59,990 nt of DNA from an uncultured Phycicoccus sp. (GTDB taxonomy: Bacteria; Actinomycetota; Actinomycetes; Actinomycetales; Dermatophilaceae): contig NZ_CANLZR010000006.1 of assembly GCF_947495705.1 (NCBI RefSeq), positions 151,664 to 211,653 on the forward strand, given 5' to 3'. Both the position numbers and the translations under genes were made by a program. Position 1 is the stretch's first letter. Each line of letters begins with the position of its first letter. Positions 2,009 through 55,819 of this stretch are shown here, one piece after another. The notes under the pieces were generated by a model. The model was not told the DNA's origin, made no database searches, and was given only the letters and a program-made list of their open reading frames with translations.

Positions 2009-3229
<1,221 letters not shown>

Positions 3230-3290
3230 GCGGCTTCTCCTTCGTGTGGGGGGTGGCGACCACCGGCTGGGGGCGGCGGGCACCCGGCCC

Positions 3291-3296
3291 AATCTA
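3291..3296 (-). promoter_or_regulatory. Putative -10 element of metK promoter
   Basis: On the minus strand the hexamer TAGATT fits the TANNNT pattern and would start transcription near 3284, giving metK a leader of about 55 bases. No convincing -35 box is seen, which is common in actinobacteria. A SAM-responsive riboswitch was looked for in this short leader and not recognised. Confidence 0.4.
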
Positions 3297-3351
3297 CCTG
3301 TCGGCGGGCGCGCCGCCCGGCGAGTCCGACCTCCGGGCTTCATCTGGAATC

Positions 3352-4851
3352 ATGGGGGTCGTGTCTGACGGGACCAACGGTGTGACAACGACGCTCGGCT
3401 CCGGGTCGAGCGCGCCCGAGAGCCCGGTCGACGAGGCGCTCACCCTGCTGACCCGCGCCCAGACGCTCGCCGACCAGCTGCGCGAGGAGGCCGGGCGCGA
3501 GCTGACCGACGCGCGCGCCGAGTCGGCCCGGCTCCGGGCCGAGGCCGCGGCCGCGGCGCACGAGCTCGCCGAGCTGACCACCCGGGTCGAGGAGGGCCGC
3601 GCCGAGGCCGAGCGCAGCCTGCAAGAGACCCGGTCCGAGGTCGAGATCATGCTCGCCGACGCCGCCGACCAGGCCTCGCTGCTGCGGGCCCGCGCGACCA
3701 AGGCCAGCGACGAGGCCATCTCGATCGCCGAGGAGCAGGCCGCCGCGCTCGTCGCCGACGCGCAGGACCGTGCGACCGCGCTGCTCGACCGGGCGCGGAC
3801 CGAGCACGAGACGACGATGGCCCGGCTGGCCGAGGAGGAGCGGGCCCACCAGGAGCGGTGGGAGGCCGAGCATGCGGCGCACGCCGCCGAGCTCGCGAGC
3901 CTGCGCGAGTCCACCGGGTCCGAGCTCGCCGCGCTGCGCCGGGAGACCGACGAGTACGCGGCCCGGCACCGCGGTGCCGCCGAGGCCGAGGCGCTCGCCC
4001 GGCTCGAGGACGTGGCGACCCGTGAGGAGCAGTCCCGCGCGGACGTCGACCGGCTCGTCGAGGATGCCCGGGCGATGGCGGCCCGGCTGGTCGGCGACGC
4101 GGAGGCCGAGGCCCGCGACACGATCGACACCGCCGAGAAGCACCTCGCCTGGGCGCAGGGCACGGTGCGCGAGATCCTCGACCGGGCCGAGGCCGAGCGC
4201 GAACACCGGGCTCGCACCCACCACCAGGAGCTCACCGCCCGCACCCGCACCCACCGGCAGCGGGTGCAGACCATCCTCGGGAGTGCCACGGCGAAGTCGC
4301 GCGACCGTCTCGCCGAGGCCGAGTCGGAGTCCCGGCGGATGCGCGAGCTCGCCGAGTCCGTCCTCGCCGAGGCCCGGGCCGACGCCGAGCGCACCCGTGA
4401 CGCCGCCGCGAAGGAAGCCGCGCGACTCGTCGAGGAGGCCCGCCGCCGCGAGGTCGAGGCCAACGCCCGGGCCGACCGCCGGCTCAGCGAGGCCGAGGAC
4501 GGCGCCCGGCTCGTCCGCCAGGCGGCCGCCGAGGACGTCGAGCGCATGCACCGCGAGGCCCACGAGTACCACCGTGCCGCCCGGGCCGAGATCGTCACGG
4601 CCTCCGAGCAGGCCCGGCAGCGGGCGGACGGCGTCCGGGCCGAGGCGCACGCCGCCGTCGAGCGCGCGCGCGCCGAGGTGCATACACTCGCAGCGCGCCG
4701 TGATGCCATCAACGCTCAGCTCGGGCGGCTGTCCGGGGTCATCGAGGCCCTGGCCGTCCACGACGGGTCCGCGGGCCCGGCACACGCCGACAGCGACGCC
4801 GCCGCCGTCGACCAGACCCACATCTCCACCTCAGATCCACAGGAGTCCTGA
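3352..4851 (+). CDS. Long coiled-coil protein, partner of the DivIVA-like protein
   Basis: The predicted protein (499 residues) is almost entirely heptad-like, rich in Ala, Glu and Arg, with no membrane segment or signal peptide; it should be a cytoplasmic rod. A short Ser/Gly-rich N-terminus is followed by coiled coil from about residue 25 to 470. Near the C-terminus the segment LAARRDAINAQLGRL resembles TARRDSITAQLSNV in the next gene, so the two look related or co-assembling. It lacks the FxxRGYDPxxVD motif of DivIVA. Function is not known; a cytoskeletal or polar-growth role like Scy/FilP in Streptomyces is inference. The stop overlaps the next start (TGATG), implying translational coupling. 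The start is uncertain: ATG 3352, GTG 3361 and GTG 3382 are all possible and none has a strong Shine-Dalgarno. Confidence 0.8.
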   Translation: MGVVSDGTNGVTTTLGSGSSAPESPVDEALTLLTRAQTLADQLREEAGRELTDARAESARLRAEAAAAAHELAELTTRVEEGRAEAERSLQETRSEVEIMLADAADQASLLRARATKASDEAISIAEEQAAALVADAQDRATALLDRARTEHETTMARLAEEERAHQERWEAEHAAHAAELASLRESTGSELAALRRETDEYAARHRGAAEAEALARLEDVATREEQSRADVDRLVEDARAMAARLVGDAEAEARDTIDTAEKHLAWAQGTVREILDRAEAEREHRARTHHQELTARTRTHRQRVQTILGSATAKSRDRLAEAESESRRMRELAESVLAEARADAERTRDAAAKEAARLVEEARRREVEANARADRRLSEAEDGARLVRQAAAEDVERMHREAHEYHRAARAEIVTASEQARQRADGVRAEAHAAVERARAEVHTLAARRDAINAQLGRLSGVIEALAVHDGSAGPAHADSDAAAVDQTHISTSDPQES

Positions 4852-6101
4852 TGAACCAGCCGGAGTTCCCGACCGTCTTCCGTGGCTACGACCCCGTGCA
4901 GGTCGACGCCCACGTCGCGGCGCTGCACCAGGCCGTCGAGTCGGCCCGCCGGGAGGCGGAGGCCGCGCGGCAGGAGGCGGCCGAGAACTCGGTCCAGCTG
5001 ACGAAGGCGCGCCAGGACCGGGAGTCCGCGAGCGAGGAGCTCGAGTCGCACCGCGCGAAGGTGGCCGAGCTCGAGGAGCAGTCCCGGCAGGTCTCCAACC
5101 CGACCTTCGCCGACCTCGGCGACCGGATCGGCCGGATGCTCGGGCTCGCCGACGAGGAGGCCGGGTCGATCCGCGACGCCGCCACCGCGCAGGCCGACGA
5201 GGTCCGCCGGGCCGCCACCGACGAGAGCCAGCTCGTCCGCGCGGAGGCCGACCGGTACGCCGAGGAGGTGCGCAACCGCGCCGACACCGACGCCGCCGAG
5301 ATCCTCTCGCGCGCCAAGGCGCAGGCCGACTCGATCGTCGACGACGCCGCGCGGGAGGCCGCCGCCCGCCATGAGGAGGCCGAGGCGTACTACGAGAAGC
5401 AGCGGGCCACCGCTGCCGCGCAGGCCGCCGACTTCGAGCGGACGCTCGGCGAGCGGCGCGAGCGGTCCGCGGCGGAGTTCAACGAGCAGATGGCCACCCA
5501 GGACGACGCGCTGCGCGCCATCCAGGAGCGCGCGGACCTGCTGGCCCGCGAGGCCGACGAGGACCACACCGCCAAGCTCGCCGAGTCGAACCGGATCCTG
5601 GAGTCGGCCCGCGCCGAGGCCGCCGAGATCGTCCGGGTGTCCAAGGAGCAGGCCGAGCGGGTGCGCCGTGACTCCGAGCGCGAGCTGGCCGCCGCGACGG
5701 CCCGCCGCGACAGCATCACCGCGCAGCTGTCCAACGTGCGCAACATGCTCGCGACCCTCGGTGGCCCGGCTGCGGCCGAGGCGATCGTCGCGAGCACCGA
5801 GGCGCCGCCGGCCGAGGACGCCGCGGCGGGTCAGGAGCCCGAGGAGCCGGTCACCGACGACGCCGCCACCGACGAGACGGTCACCGACGAGACGGTCTCG
5901 GACGAGGCCGCCACCGACGGTGAGCCGGCCGACGAGGAGGCCCCCACGGACGGGTCGACCGAGGAGACGGTCGTCGAGGTTTCCGACGAAGAGGCCGACG
6001 AAGAGGTCGAGCCCGAGGACGCGGTCGGCGCGGACGCGGCGGACCAGGGCCACGCCGAGGGCGGGAAGCAGAAGAAGAAGCGCGCGGCCGCGCACCGCTG
6101 A
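4851..6101 (+). CDS. DivIVA-domain coiled-coil protein
   Basis: The 416-residue protein starts with a DivIVA-type N-terminal motif, FRGYDPVQVDAHVAAL (residues about 10-25), which in this family binds curved or polar membrane and seeds polymers. Coiled coil follows to about residue 310, ending in TARRDSITAQLSNV. The last 100 residues are a very acidic, low-complexity tail rich in Asp, Glu, Thr and Ala, closing with a basic KQKKKRAAAHR. An AGGAG box at 4841-4845, inside the end of the preceding gene, sets the start. DivIVA proteins organise polar growth and septum placement; that this one does so is inference. It is probably not the main DivIVA, which in actinobacteria usually lies near ftsZ. 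Its 3' end faces coaBC. Confidence 0.85.
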   Translation: MNQPEFPTVFRGYDPVQVDAHVAALHQAVESARREAEAARQEAAENSVQLTKARQDRESASEELESHRAKVAELEEQSRQVSNPTFADLGDRIGRMLGLADEEAGSIRDAATAQADEVRRAATDESQLVRAEADRYAEEVRNRADTDAAEILSRAKAQADSIVDDAAREAAARHEEAEAYYEKQRATAAAQAADFERTLGERRERSAAEFNEQMATQDDALRAIQERADLLAREADEDHTAKLAESNRILESARAEAAEIVRVSKEQAERVRRDSERELAAATARRDSITAQLSNVRNMLATLGGPAAAEAIVASTEAPPAEDAAAGQEPEEPVTDDAATDETVTDETVSDEAATDGEPADEEAPTDGSTEETVVEVSDEEADEEVEPEDAVGADAADQGHAEGGKQKKKRAAAHR

Positions 6102-6149: not shown

Positions 6150-7454
6150 TCAGAGCAGGTCGGAGACGACGTCCCACACGGCGCCGGCGACCGTGGTCTT
6201 GGTCGCCGGGCCGACGTCGAGGACCTGCTCGCTCCCCCGGCGCAGGACGTGAACGGTGTTCTCGTCCTTGCCGAACGTCACGCCCGCGCCCACCTCGTTG
6301 ACGACGAGGACGTCGCAGCCCTTGCGCGCGAGCTTGGCGCGGCCGTGCTCGAGCACCGACCCGGTGCCGTCGCCGGTCTCGGCGGCGAAGCCGACGAGCA
6401 CCGGGGCCGAGGCACCGCCGCGCTCGGCGACGAGCCCGGCGAGGATGTCGGGGTTGCGCACGAGGGCGACCGTGGGCGCCGAGTCGTCGGCCGCACCGTC
6501 GGCATCGGGGCCGTGGGTCTTCTTGATCTTGTGGGCCGCCACCTGCGCCGGGCGGAAGTCGGCCACCGCGGCGGCCATGACGACGACGTCAGCGGAGGCG
6601 GCCGCCTCACGGACCGCGGCCTGCATCTCGAGCGCCGTCTCGACGTGGACGGCCGTGGCTCCCGGCGGCACCGGCAGCCCGGACGTCGTGACGAGCGTGA
6701 CGTCGGCGCCCCGCTGCACGGCGACGGCCGCGAGGGCGTAGCCCTGCTTGCCGGAGGACCGGTTGCCGAGGTACCGCACCGGGTCGAGGGGCTCCCGGGT
6801 CCCGCCGGCGGAGACGACCACCCGCCGCCCCTCCAGATCTCCCCGACTTTTCAGGCTGGCGTCCGCCGACACGCCGCCGGCGGCCCCGCTCGCGCGGGCC
6901 CCAGCATGAGAAGTGGGGGACGCGCCGGGGTGGGAGAGCTCGCGCTGGCAGATCGCGAAGAGGTCCTCGGGCTCCGGCAGCCGGCCCGGGCCGGAGTCCT
7001 GCCCGGTGAGCCGCCCGGACGCCGGCGGCACGACGTGCACGCCGCGCTCGGAGAGCGTCGCGACGTTGGCCTGCGTGGCCGGGTGCTCCCACATCTCGGT
7101 GTGCATCGCCGGGGCCATGACCACGGGGCAGCGGGCCGTGAGCAGGACGTTGGTGAGGAGGTCGTCGGCCTGCCCGGTGGCCGCGCGCGCGAGCAGGTCG
7201 GCGGTGGCCGGGGCGACGACGACGAGGTCGGCCTCCTGGCCGATCCGGACGTGCGGGACCTCGGTGATGTCGGACCACACGTCGGTGTGCACCGGCTTGC
7301 CCGACAGCGCCGACCAGGTGGCCTCGCCCACGAAGTGCAGGGCGGAGGCGGTCGGCACGACCGTGACGTCGTGGCCGGCCTCGGACAGGAGACGCAGCAG
7401 GCTGCACGCCTTGTACGCCGCGATGCCCCCGGCGACCCCGAGGACGACCTTCAC
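6150..7454 (-). CDS. coaBC: Bifunctional phosphopantothenoylcysteine decarboxylase/synthase
   Basis: CoaBC joins cysteine to 4'-phosphopantothenate (CoaB, CTP-dependent) and decarboxylates the product (CoaC, FMN-dependent) in coenzyme A synthesis. In the 434-residue protein the CoaC half (about 1-175) shows GGIAAYK, VAPATADLLARAATG and MAPAMHTEMW; the CoaB half (about 210-434) shows SAGGTREPLDPVRYLG, NRSSGKQGYA and KIKK. The segment matching E. coli CoaC Cys158 reads GQDSGPGRLPEP without Cys, which I recall also for mycobacterial enzymes. The linker, residues about 179-205, is encoded by a palindromic DNA element (6841-6919) and is longer than in M. tuberculosis as I recall it. The gene follows rpoZ after 5 bases, the usual mihF-gmk-rpoZ-coaBC order. 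Confidence 0.96.
   Translation of the reverse strand: MKVVLGVAGGIAAYKACSLLRLLSEAGHDVTVVPTASALHFVGEATWSALSGKPVHTDVWSDITEVPHVRIGQEADLVVVAPATADLLARAATGQADDLLTNVLLTARCPVVMAPAMHTEMWEHPATQANVATLSERGVHVVPPASGRLTGQDSGPGRLPEPEDLFAICQRELSHPGASPTSHAGARASGAAGGVSADASLKSRGDLEGRRVVVSAGGTREPLDPVRYLGNRSSGKQGYALAAVAVQRGADVTLVTTSGLPVPPGATAVHVETALEMQAAVREAAASADVVVMAAAVADFRPAQVAAHKIKKTHGPDADGAADDSAPTVALVRNPDILAGLVAERGGASAPVLVGFAAETGDGTGSVLEHGRAKLARKGCDVLVVNEVGAGVTFGKDENTVHVLRRGSEQVLDVGPATKTTVAGAVWDVVSDLL
6841..6919. repeat. Palindromic element inserted in frame in coaBC
   Basis: Two 19-base arms, CCCCGACTTTTCAGGCTGG at 6841-6859 and its partner at 6901-6919 (reverse complement CCCCCACTTCTCATGCTGG), match at 16 of 19 positions. 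The 41 bases between them hold a smaller perfect palindrome (GCCGCCGGCGGC). The A/T-containing arms differ in composition from the surrounding coding DNA. The element encodes roughly residues 179-205, exactly the linker between the two CoaBC enzymes, and keeps the frame open. It looks like a REP or miniature palindromic element; no second copy was recognised in this window. Confidence 0.6.
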
Positions 7455-53177: not shown

Positions 53178-54866
53178 TCAGTGGCCGGCACGCGCCAGCA
53201 GGTCGCGCGCGTGGTCGAGGGCGGCTGTGGTGCCGGAGCCGCCGAGCATCCGGGCGAGCTCGGCCACCCGGTGTTCTCCGTCGACCTCGTGGACCATGCT
53301 GCGGGTCACGTGCCCGTCGTCGGACTTCTCGACGACGAGATGCCGGTCGGCGTGGGCGGCCACCTGGGCCAGGTGGGTGACGACGACGACCTGGGCGTGC
53401 CGGGCCAGCGCGGCGAGCCGCGCCCCGACGTCGAGCGCCGCGCGGCCACCGACCCCCGCGTCGACCTCGTCGAAGACGAACGTCGGCACCGAGGCCGACT
53501 CCTGCGCGGTGGCGACCTCGATGGCGAGCATGACGCGCGAGAGCTCGCCCCCGGAGGCGGCCTTGGTGACCGACCGCGGGGCCGCCCCCGGGCCCGCGGC
53601 GAGCCGGATCTCGACGGTGTCCCGCCCGTCGGCACCGAACCGCCCGGCATCCTCGACGGCGACGGTGACGGTGGCGGACCCCATCGCGAGGTGGCCGAGC
53701 TCGTCGGTGATCCGGGCCCCGAGAGCATCGGCGGCGGCGCACCGGGCAGCTGTGAGCCGGGTGGCGGCGGCCTCACGGTCGGCGACGAGCGCGTCCAGGC
53801 GCGTGGCCAGCTCCTCGATCCGGTCCCCCGTGCCGTCGAGCGCGGCCACCCGGACGGCGGCGTCCGCACCCCAGGCGAGGACGTCGTCCACGGTCGGCCC
53901 GTAGAGCCGGGTGAGCTCGGTGAGGGCGGCGCGGCGCTGCTCGACCTGGTCGAGGCGCGCGGGGTCGACCTCGGCGCCGGCGAGGTAGGACCCGAGGTCG
54001 GCGGCGACGTCGGCGGCCAGGTAGCGCAGCTCGTCGACGCGGGTCCCGAGGGCGGCCAGGGCCGGGTCGCTGTGCGAGGCGAGGTCGATCCGGGAGGCCG
54101 CCGTGGCGAGGGCGTCGACGATCCCCTGCCCCGCCGCGGCGTCGTCGTCGGCGCCGCTGAGGATGTCGTGGGCCGCACCGGCCGCGGTGCGCAGCTCCTC
54201 GGCGTGGCCGAGTCGCTCGGACTCGGCCCGCAGCACGTCGTCCTCCCCCGGCTGCGGGTCGAGCGCCTCGATCCGCTCGAGGCCGACGCGCAGGGTCTCG
54301 GCCTCGCGGGCCCGCTCGGCCGCCGCCGCGCGCAGGGTCTCGAGCTCGGTCTCGGCCGCGCTCAGCTCGTCGTGGACCGCCCGGTACGCGGCGAGCGCGC
54401 CGGCGACGTCCGCCCCGGCGTAGGCGTCGAGCACCTCCCGGTGCTCGTCGGCCCGGCGGAGCCGCCACTGGTCGGCCTGCCCGTGGACGGCCACGAGATG
54501 CTCGGCCAGGTCGGCGAGCACCCCGACGGGGGCCGCGCGACCGCCGACGTGGGCCCGGGACCGGCCGTCGGCCTGAACGGTCCGCACGAGGACGAGCCCG
54601 TCCGACACGTCGGCCCCGGCCTCCTCGGCCCGCTGGAGGGCGGGGTGCCCGGCTGGCAGGTCGATGACACCCTCGACGACGGTGCGGCCGGTCCCGGCCC
54701 GGACGAGCCCGGAGTCGCCACGCCCCCCGAGGAGCAGTCCGAGGCCCGTCACGACCATCGTCTTGCCCGCGCCGGTCTCGCCGGAGAGCACGGTGAGGCC
54801 GGGGTGCAGCGGCAGGACCGCCTCGTCGATCACCCCCAGGTCCCTGATGCGGATCTCGTCGATCAC
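53178..54866 (-). CDS. recN: DNA repair protein RecN
   Basis: RecN is an SMC-like ATPase that gathers broken DNA ends. The 562-residue protein has Walker A GETGAGKT (residues 29-36), a central coiled coil (about 160-370), the ABC signature ASGGELSRVMLA and Walker B VPTFVFDEVDAGVGG, then the H-loop VVTHLAQVAAHAD. GTG 54866 overlaps the nadK stop by 4 bases; the longer upstream reading is over nadK. The tlyA-nadK-recN-steA-steB order is conserved in actinobacteria. Confidence 0.96.
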   Translation of the reverse strand: MIDEIRIRDLGVIDEAVLPLHPGLTVLSGETGAGKTMVVTGLGLLLGGRGDSGLVRAGTGRTVVEGVIDLPAGHPALQRAEEAGADVSDGLVLVRTVQADGRSRAHVGGRAAPVGVLADLAEHLVAVHGQADQWRLRRADEHREVLDAYAGADVAGALAAYRAVHDELSAAETELETLRAAAAERAREAETLRVGLERIEALDPQPGEDDVLRAESERLGHAEELRTAAGAAHDILSGADDDAAAGQGIVDALATAASRIDLASHSDPALAALGTRVDELRYLAADVAADLGSYLAGAEVDPARLDQVEQRRAALTELTRLYGPTVDDVLAWGADAAVRVAALDGTGDRIEELATRLDALVADREAAATRLTAARCAAADALGARITDELGHLAMGSATVTVAVEDAGRFGADGRDTVEIRLAAGPGAAPRSVTKAASGGELSRVMLAIEVATAQESASVPTFVFDEVDAGVGGRAALDVGARLAALARHAQVVVVTHLAQVAAHADRHLVVEKSDDGHVTRSMVHEVDGEHRVAELARMLGGSGTTAALDHARDLLARAGH

Positions 54867-55819
54867 CGCGCCGGGCCCTCCCCGCGGGCCGTGACCTGCT
54901 CGGCGGCGCGCTGGCGGCGGGCCGCACCACGCCACCCGTACACGGGCAGGTCGAACTTCTCGACGAGCCGGTCGGTGAAGACCGCGTGTGAGAGCCGGGC
55001 GAGCCGGACCGGCAGGTCCGAGCGCTCGACCTCGACCTGGGCTCCGGGCGGCAGCGACACGGCACGGCGGCCGTCGCACCACAGGACCGCGCCGGCGTCG
55101 GCGTCGGGGAGCAGCTGGACCGCGAGGTGCGAACGGGGCCCGACGACCACGGGCCGGGCGAACAGGGCGTGGGCGCTGATCGGGACGAGCAGCACCGCCT
55201 CGACGTCGGGCCACACGATCGGGCCGCCCGCGGAGAACGCGTAGGCGGTGGACCCGGTGGGGGTCGCCATGACGATGCCGTCGCACCCCCAGGTGGACAG
55301 CGGCCGCCCGTCGATCTCGACGGTGAGCTCGAGCATCCGCTCGCGCGAGGCCTTCTCGACGGTCACCTCGTTCAGGGCCCACGACGCGAACGGCTCGGAC
55401 CCGTTGACCCGGGCGCGCACCTCGAGGGTCATCCGCTCCTCGACGGTGTAGTCGCGGGCGCAGATGCGTTCGACGGTGGCGTCCAGGGCCTCGCGCTCGG
55501 CCTCCGCGAGGAAGCCGACGTGGCCGAGGTTGACGCCCAACAGGGGCGCCCCGGAGCCCCGCGAGATCTCGGCCCCGCGCAGGATCGTGCCGTCGCCGCC
55601 GAGGACGCAGACGAGCTCGACGTCGAGGTCGTGGCGGGTCTCGTCGACGGCCTCGACCCCCTCGACGGCGGCGAGCGGTGTGCCCTCGAGGTCGGCCGCG
55701 GGCGCGGACACCCCGATGCTGGACGCGAGGAGCCTCGTGGCGACGGCCGCCGCGAGCTCCTGGGCCTCGACGCGCGACGCGTGGGTCACGAGGAGGATCC
55801 GGCGCTCTGGCGTGGTCAT
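54863..55819 (-). CDS. nadK: NAD kinase
   Basis: NadK phosphorylates NAD to NADP. The 318-residue protein has the signature GGDGTIL (74-80), the NE/D motif SWALNEVTVEK, TPTGSTAYAFSAGGPIV, and ISAHALFARPVV. ATG 55819 overlaps the tlyA stop by 4 bases and gives TTPERRILLVTH; the 31-codon upstream extension lies on tlyA and is not protein-like. Family members in mycobacteria (PpnK) can use polyphosphate as well as ATP; whether this one does cannot be told. Confidence 0.95.
   Translation of the reverse strand: MTTPERRILLVTHASRVEAQELAAAVATRLLASSIGVSAPAADLEGTPLAAVEGVEAVDETRHDLDVELVCVLGGDGTILRGAEISRGSGAPLLGVNLGHVGFLAEAEREALDATVERICARDYTVEERMTLEVRARVNGSEPFASWALNEVTVEKASRERMLELTVEIDGRPLSTWGCDGIVMATPTGSTAYAFSAGGPIVWPDVEAVLLVPISAHALFARPVVVGPRSHLAVQLLPDADAGAVLWCDGRRAVSLPPGAQVEVERSDLPVRLARLSHAVFTDRLVEKFDLPVYGWRGAARRQRAAEQVTARGEGPAR

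Follow-up and report, generated by a model that had tools for sequence, protein, structure and literature searches.

To our knowledge, interspersed palindromes are best described outside the bacterial group to which the genome studied here belongs. Among the described systems, REPs measure 20-40 bp, carry an unpaired GTAG or CGTC tag and are often arranged as dimers; they occur in tens to hundreds of copies in the gaps between convergent or tandem ORFs and often lie less than 20 bp from a 3' end (PMC3733652). The GTAG super-family of REPs is found with RAYT and the CGTC families have no dedicated transposase; tag-less REP-like repeats in M. tuberculosis are mentioned in the same source, from which the word 'actinobacteri' is absent (PMC3733652). 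RPEs are about 150 bp long, with 44 integrations in genes of R. conorii (PMC10969869), and MITEs, ERIC and SPRITE are non-coding inverted repeats that are intergenic and sometimes intragenic (PMC10969869, PMC2759123). The DNA uptake sequences (DUS) of Neisseriaceae are 10-12-mers present in thousands of copies, and their dialects have a conserved core, species variants that are uniform within each genome and inverted pairs behind genes (PMC3630211). Finally, the matS sites of MatP are tens of short sites on one part of the chromosome, the Ter macrodomain (PMC3330122).

The element described here lies in a window of 59,990 nucleotides (the whole stretch of DNA that was analyzed) and is a 77-bp palindrome with CCC...GGG ends, at 6842..6918 with no strand assigned, placed in frame in the linker of coaBC. 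It resembles REPs in being a dispersed palindrome found mostly behind genes and, like the CGTC families, in that no dedicated transposase was found for it in a search for Y1_Tnp, but it is a single 77-bp dyad with paired ends CCC(G/C)AC. A RAYT-linked REP of the GTAG kind was rejected, as PF01797 was not found in 12 genomes of the genus and the unit is 77-78 bp long with paired ends. Like RPEs, the element places palindromic units in frame within protein genes; however, it is 77-78 bp long and mostly intergenic, with three full coding copies among 85, and is set apart from RPEs by length, habitat and host group. Membership of the RPEs is therefore not supported, and the kinship with them and the spread mainly through coding genes that a sequence-only reading had proposed are not upheld. 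In common with MITEs, ERIC and SPRITE, the element is an inverted repeat that is intergenic and sometimes intragenic, but it has no target duplication, no parent IS was seen in the draft genome, and only a short loop lies between its arms; a MITE of a DDE transposon with target duplication was rejected (0 of 78 copies). A shared core with species-specific variants and inverted pairs behind genes recall DUS, although the source genome has at least 31 paired places and one isolated perfect arm. A DNA uptake sequence was rejected on this count, since 59 arms, all but one of them paired, stand against hundreds to thousands of single copies. The confinement of the places to one part of a chromosome (G009) is shared with matS, but matS measures 13 bp against 77 bp, and the likeness comes from one genome tested, in which the occupied half is tied to no landmark. 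The best explanation is that the element works like a REP or MITE, as a palindrome that would be spread or maintained in trans by a protein that we infer.

The palindrome within coaBC

The host gene, coaBC, occupies 6150..7454 on the minus strand, with a GTG start and 434 aa (TIGR00521, 361.7 bits). The palindrome claimed by the sequence-only reading is present as stated, with 19-base arms that match at 16 of 19 positions: the left arm (6841-6859) is CCCCGACTTTTCAGGCTGG and the right arm (6901-6919, minus strand) is CCCCCACTTCTCATGCTGG. The terminal motif and species code occupy 6842..6857 on the plus strand in the left arm (CCCGACTTTTCAGGCT; C6:158505-158520) and 6903..6918 on the minus strand in the right arm (CCCCACTTCTCATGCT; C6:158566-158581), each with 0 mismatches to the arm pattern of the source genome. 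An inner CCGC box, recognized from the sequence and from arm profiles, lies at 6863..6866 (plus strand) in the left arm, where it is common to the seven groups compared, and at 6894..6897 (minus strand) in the right arm. With up to 3 mismatches, the arm pattern occurs at two places in the 60-kb window, both of which are the arms of this element; shuffled controls gave a mean of 0.05, and none of 100 shuffles reached 2. The element was also the sole match in the window with E < 0.1 to model R2 (6840-6920; 60.2 bits and E 1.2e-11 on the plus strand, 49.0 bits on the minus strand). The minus-strand RNA of the element folds at -52 kcal/mol (z -2.84, with 3 of 200 shuffles as good), and four other genomic copies folded alongside it gave z from -8.5 to -11.2. 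Rfam 15 families at gathering score had no matches in the window or in 13 loci.

On the protein, the element falls after the flavoprotein domain (residues 1-166) and before the DFP domain (207-403), and the reading frame stays open through it. The linker comprises 35 codons in the source genome (G000) and in Phycicoccus sonneratiae MQZ13P-5 (G005), and 10-23 codons in the ten genomes of the genus that lack the element. An alignment of CoaBC from relatives thus showed that the linker is not common to all, the element being absent from all but one of the 11 other genomes, and the proposed in-frame position in the linker was borne out. The earlier figure of about 26 residues is the coding length of the element itself. 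The net gain in linker length amounts to 12-25 codons against the ten genomes without the element and comes close to that figure, at 25, against the shortest linkers. In P. sonneratiae the element is likewise in frame and starts and ends at the same codon positions; the arm codes of the two copies differ, being of the TTCATGC type in G000 and of the GTGGGG type in G005. The mycobacterial CoaBC structure 6tgv aligns as two blocks that leave no space for a linker of this kind. On the best explanation, the hypervariable linker that joins the two enzyme domains tolerates the coaBC copy. A second in-frame copy occurs in P. sonneratiae in a variable linker of a DUF3516 DEAD-box helicase, and was not seen in the five other species of an alignment for which the search motif missed 6 of 12 species. 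As a separate observation, the gene adjoining coaBC (4851-6101, plus strand) has a long acidic tail of repeated DETVTDE-like units (5800-6101 of the window).

A family of dyads with species-specific arms

The source genome is a 3.54-Mb draft and is grouped, by its kinship label, with a genus set of 12 genomes (G000-G011), probably Phycicoccus, in a family that we take to be Intrasporangiaceae. BLAST with 96 window bases as query returned many dispersed copies in this genome (E down to 3.5e-16), and model R1 gave at least 62 strand matches at E <= 0.1, corresponding to at least 31 places; searched for across the genome, the arms are thus not unique. Allowing up to 1 mismatch, the genome contains 59 arms, all but one inside these places. 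R1 was built from 25 of the 31 copies, and A1 likewise uses 25 of 31, leaving out L027, C1:484076, C1:486206, C3:32406, C7:102071 and C2:369769 of G000; the opposite-strand duplicates L012, L020 and L025 were dropped. Copy numbers are lower bounds, the candidates scored per genome being 150 for R1, 58 for R2 and 150 for the G009 map. At the same E value, R1 strand matches numbered at least 43 in G005, 37 in G003 and 25 in G009, at least 4 each in G004 and G010, and at least 2 each in G001, G002, G006 and G011, with none in G007 and G008 among the matches listed. The place inspected in G010 (L130) lacks CCC/GGG ends and is not an element. The anatomy seen in G000 recurs in G003, G004, G005, G009 and G011, and also in G076 and G103 of other genera. 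The element kind belongs to the genus of the source genome, with relatives in some other genera of the family.

Of the 85 copies delimited in six species, 79 are 77-78 bp long; the other six measure 68 bp (two copies), 85 bp (two copies, boundary miscalls), 76 bp and 79 bp (one copy each). A2 holds 53 of the 80 copies in the range of 76-79 bp. In a scan of 58 genomes, G000 was the only one to match a stricter pattern that included its own code. The outer pattern CCCGACTT N42-72 AAGTCGGG matched 10 of the 34 family genomes within 396 genomes of the order; 6 matches in the other 362 were not palindromic by eye, and a reversed control matched in 12 of the 396. R2 at E <= 1e-4 matched in at least 9 of 79 family genomes, although its matches in G026 and G109 look false, with ends missing. 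L139, in G026, is another, tandem-like repeat with CGACGCGCC and AAAAGTG blocks and not the 77-bp element, and L138, in G109 of another genus of the family, is a nearly perfect 66-bp palindrome without CCCGACTT ends.

Arm profiles, with both arms stacked, were compared among seven groups (G000, G005 type A, G005 type B, G003, G009, G076 and G103). The arm consists, in order, of a terminal CCCGAC(T/C), the first one or two bases of which are loose in four of the seven groups, a group-specific code, a variable stretch, CCGC at about position 22-26, and variable bases. The code is strongly conserved within each group, being TTCATGC in G000, TGTGGGG in G005 type A and TTGCGAG in G005 type B, G003 and G009, and, in the other genera, CGTCTGT in G076 and CGTACCC in G103. 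The corresponding code is TTTCATGC in G000, TTGTGGGG in G005 and G011 and, on the basis of two weak copies, TCTGCTCC in G004. In 53 copies drawn from six species, 81.9% of cells were paired in the dyad, against 35-42% when slid, and the covariation score was 0.286 against 0.129 when shuffled. Within G000, neither measure exceeded its shuffled control (77.4% paired vs 78.4%; covariation 0.097 vs 0.100). The arms follow the species code, with no copy-by-copy compensation within G000. Reading of each arm as duplex DNA would give such a result, and so would the decay of copies made from a perfect master.

When elements were masked, 8 copy pairs with matching flanks were found among 31 copies in G000 and 23 in G005, against about 0.5 shared sites for random placement of 31 + 23 copies in about 1,400 convergent or tandem gaps (a scaled estimate). 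The arm code differs between the two species at all of these sites, the G005 copy being of type A in 7 and of type B in 1. That 8 sites are common to both argues for old, fixed sites over free movement. Type B sites are common to G003, G009 and G005, so that there are seemingly two sets of sites; near C2:378076, G005 has a type B copy where nine other species show no visible element. At C2:369769 an element is present in G000 and none in G001, G005, G006, G007, G009 and G011, and G002 has its own hairpin there, ending in AAGTCGGG. In the same gap, L268-L270 (G010, G002 and G003) contain unrelated-looking inverted repeats of similar length. A tree of about 2.7 kb, from which the placement of the partly misaligned G010 was left out, puts G000 outside the group of G005, G011, G002, G003 and G009, with G011 as the sister of G005 (support 90). 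Because G000 lies outside this group and G011 is without a coaBC copy, the coaBC copies go back either to one old insertion with several losses and later recoding, or to the same nucleotide having been entered twice with different codes.

Copies within G000 have a mean pairwise identity of 0.77, the best pair reaching 0.90. Close pairs within one region had identities of 0.99 (G009, 701 kb), 0.90 (G005, C17) and 0.88 (G000, C3). On C1 of G009, local clusters occur with a spacing of about 100-620 bp (for example 54452-55030, 505283-505556 and 701204-701597), and these local clusters suggest local duplication.

Proposed mobility and protein binding, and chromosome position

We read the coaBC element as belonging to a non-autonomous, REP/MITE-like family of interspersed palindromes, which a putative arm-reading protein would move or copy (probability about 0.6). 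A trans-acting protein, which could be a transposase or another nuclease, would recognize 15 bp at the outer end of each arm and copy or move the unit without target duplication. New copies would take the place of older ones at a given site, or enter it again, which would give each species its own code, and in coaBC the unit would lengthen the interdomain linker with the frame open and be tolerated. Mobility is favored by the many copies of near-fixed length, by the species-specific code and the uneven conservation of the arm (motif, free spacer and CCGC box), by the site C2:369769, which is occupied in G000 and empty in six species, by the local clusters in G009 and close pairs in one region, and by the preference for the stop side together with rare in-frame coding copies in variable linkers. 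Set against it are the few recent identical copies in G000 and three negative results. Y1_Tnp (PF01797), the only transposase family searched, was found in none of the 12 genus genomes, with the control positive in 5 of 14 named genomes; target duplication, sought as abutting repeats of at least 3 bp, was seen in 0 of 78 copies, with 0.6 expected by shuffling; and plasmids searched with one copy (L094) and phages with one copy (L016) gave no match.

The distribution along the chromosome bears on two further readings. In G009, a single contig of 4.08 Mb, at least 42 places fall into 29 clusters, all on 53% of the chromosome, leaving an empty arc of 1.91 Mb (47%) for which the chance bound is 6e-7 if the clusters are independent; the distribution was tested in this one genome, and the map rests on 150 scored of 16,299 candidates. 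The coaBC gene of G009 is at 2.98 Mb, inside the empty arc. GC skew in 20 samples of 12 kb was noisy, and the strand bias of the genes points to a switch at about 1.1 Mb. It is conceivable, though we regard it as doubtful, that the family is a co-evolving address system, in which a protein would read the outer 15 bp of the 77-bp dyads and, its specificity having been recoded within the genus, the dispersed sites including that in coaBC would have followed at the same positions, either for copying the element or for organizing the chromosome.

Alternatively, a chromosomal protein could bind the dyads as fixed sites, with each arm a half-site, in the manner of MatP and matS; the code would then have followed a change in the protein's specificity, and the coaBC copy would be a site in a permissive linker. 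The arc empty of the at least 42 places, the arms nearly always paired at a fixed distance, and the 8 sites common to G000 and G005 with different codes agree with this. So does the lack of arm covariation in G000 beyond column composition, as for duplex half-sites, although a perfect master whose copies decay would leave the same picture. We nevertheless consider fixed binding sites unlikely, since 7 bases in two arms at at least 7 sites would need concerted change, sites are gained or lost between species, and G007 and G008 of the same genus have no R1 match among the matches listed; moreover, the G009 distribution comes from 150 scored candidates of 16,299, and coaBC itself falls within the empty arc.

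Setting behind genes

The preference for the stop side, cited above for a mobile palindrome, could also be explained at the level of RNA. By a homemade ORF caller with at least one start misplaced, the 85 copies were assigned to 36 convergent, 36 tandem and 6 divergent gaps and 7 CDS, whereas the other gaps of at least 20 bp in the same loci (n=115) comprised 18 convergent, 67 tandem and 30 divergent. Three of the 7 'CDS' copies are full in-frame coding copies (coaBC in G000, coaBC and the DUF3516 helicase in G005); as for the other four, one is truly in a divergent gap and three overlap only the 3' end of a called ORF. In G000, G005, G003 and G009, the distance to a stop codon is 30 bp or less for 55 of the 70 copies found in convergent or tandem gaps, and tandem-gap copies are nearer the stop than the start in 29 of 34 (p 4e-5). 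Such positions, the share of convergent gaps and the strong folds are consistent with hairpins behind stops that would end transcription or protect mRNA 3' ends and be kept by selection, the coaBC copy being misplaced. Yet an intrinsic terminator was rejected, as none of 156 flanks contained TTTT (mean T 1.24 of 12 vs 1.55 background), and no terminator-like site was found in a 2.2-kb stretch holding two copies. A hairpin would also have no need of a species-wide code, the base pairs in G000 are not kept by compensation, and REPs take the same position without being classical terminators (PMC3733652). We therefore consider selected RNA hairpins quite improbable. The weakest reading, that of an ordinary coding sequence of a variable linker with chance self-complementarity, would fit the range of 10 to 35 codons in the linkers of the genus but is scarcely credible, being refuted by the many similar BLAST copies and the at least 31 places in G000, the 0.05 arm matches expected in the window, and the same position and frame in G005.

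One further place in G000 (C7 5785-7158; L299 2286-3660) has a single perfect arm with a CCGC box and, 1.36 kb on, a weak inverted arm with 2 mismatches, which is within the chance level of that search. A methyltransferase-like ORF (2602-3495), set between two genes on the minus strand, lies between the arms, where no transposase was recognized by eye, and L299 is perhaps an element split by an inserted gene. In the search for a parent IS with the same ends, this perfect arm was the one arm (up to 1 mismatch) outside the at least 31 places in the draft genome.

In summary, our literature search for palindromic repeats of Phycicoccus or Intrasporangiaceae found no description, although other papers may exist. 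In coaBC, one copy of the palindrome makes a central metabolic enzyme longer and leaves its frame intact. If the dyads do form an address system, the sites would mark about half of the chromosome in one species (G009). The family offers natural pairs, in which the same gene site carries one of two arm codes or no element. Two questions can be tested on these pairs: what mobilizes or maintains palindromes in genomes where RAYT was not found, and how the members of a dispersed sequence family come to change their code together.
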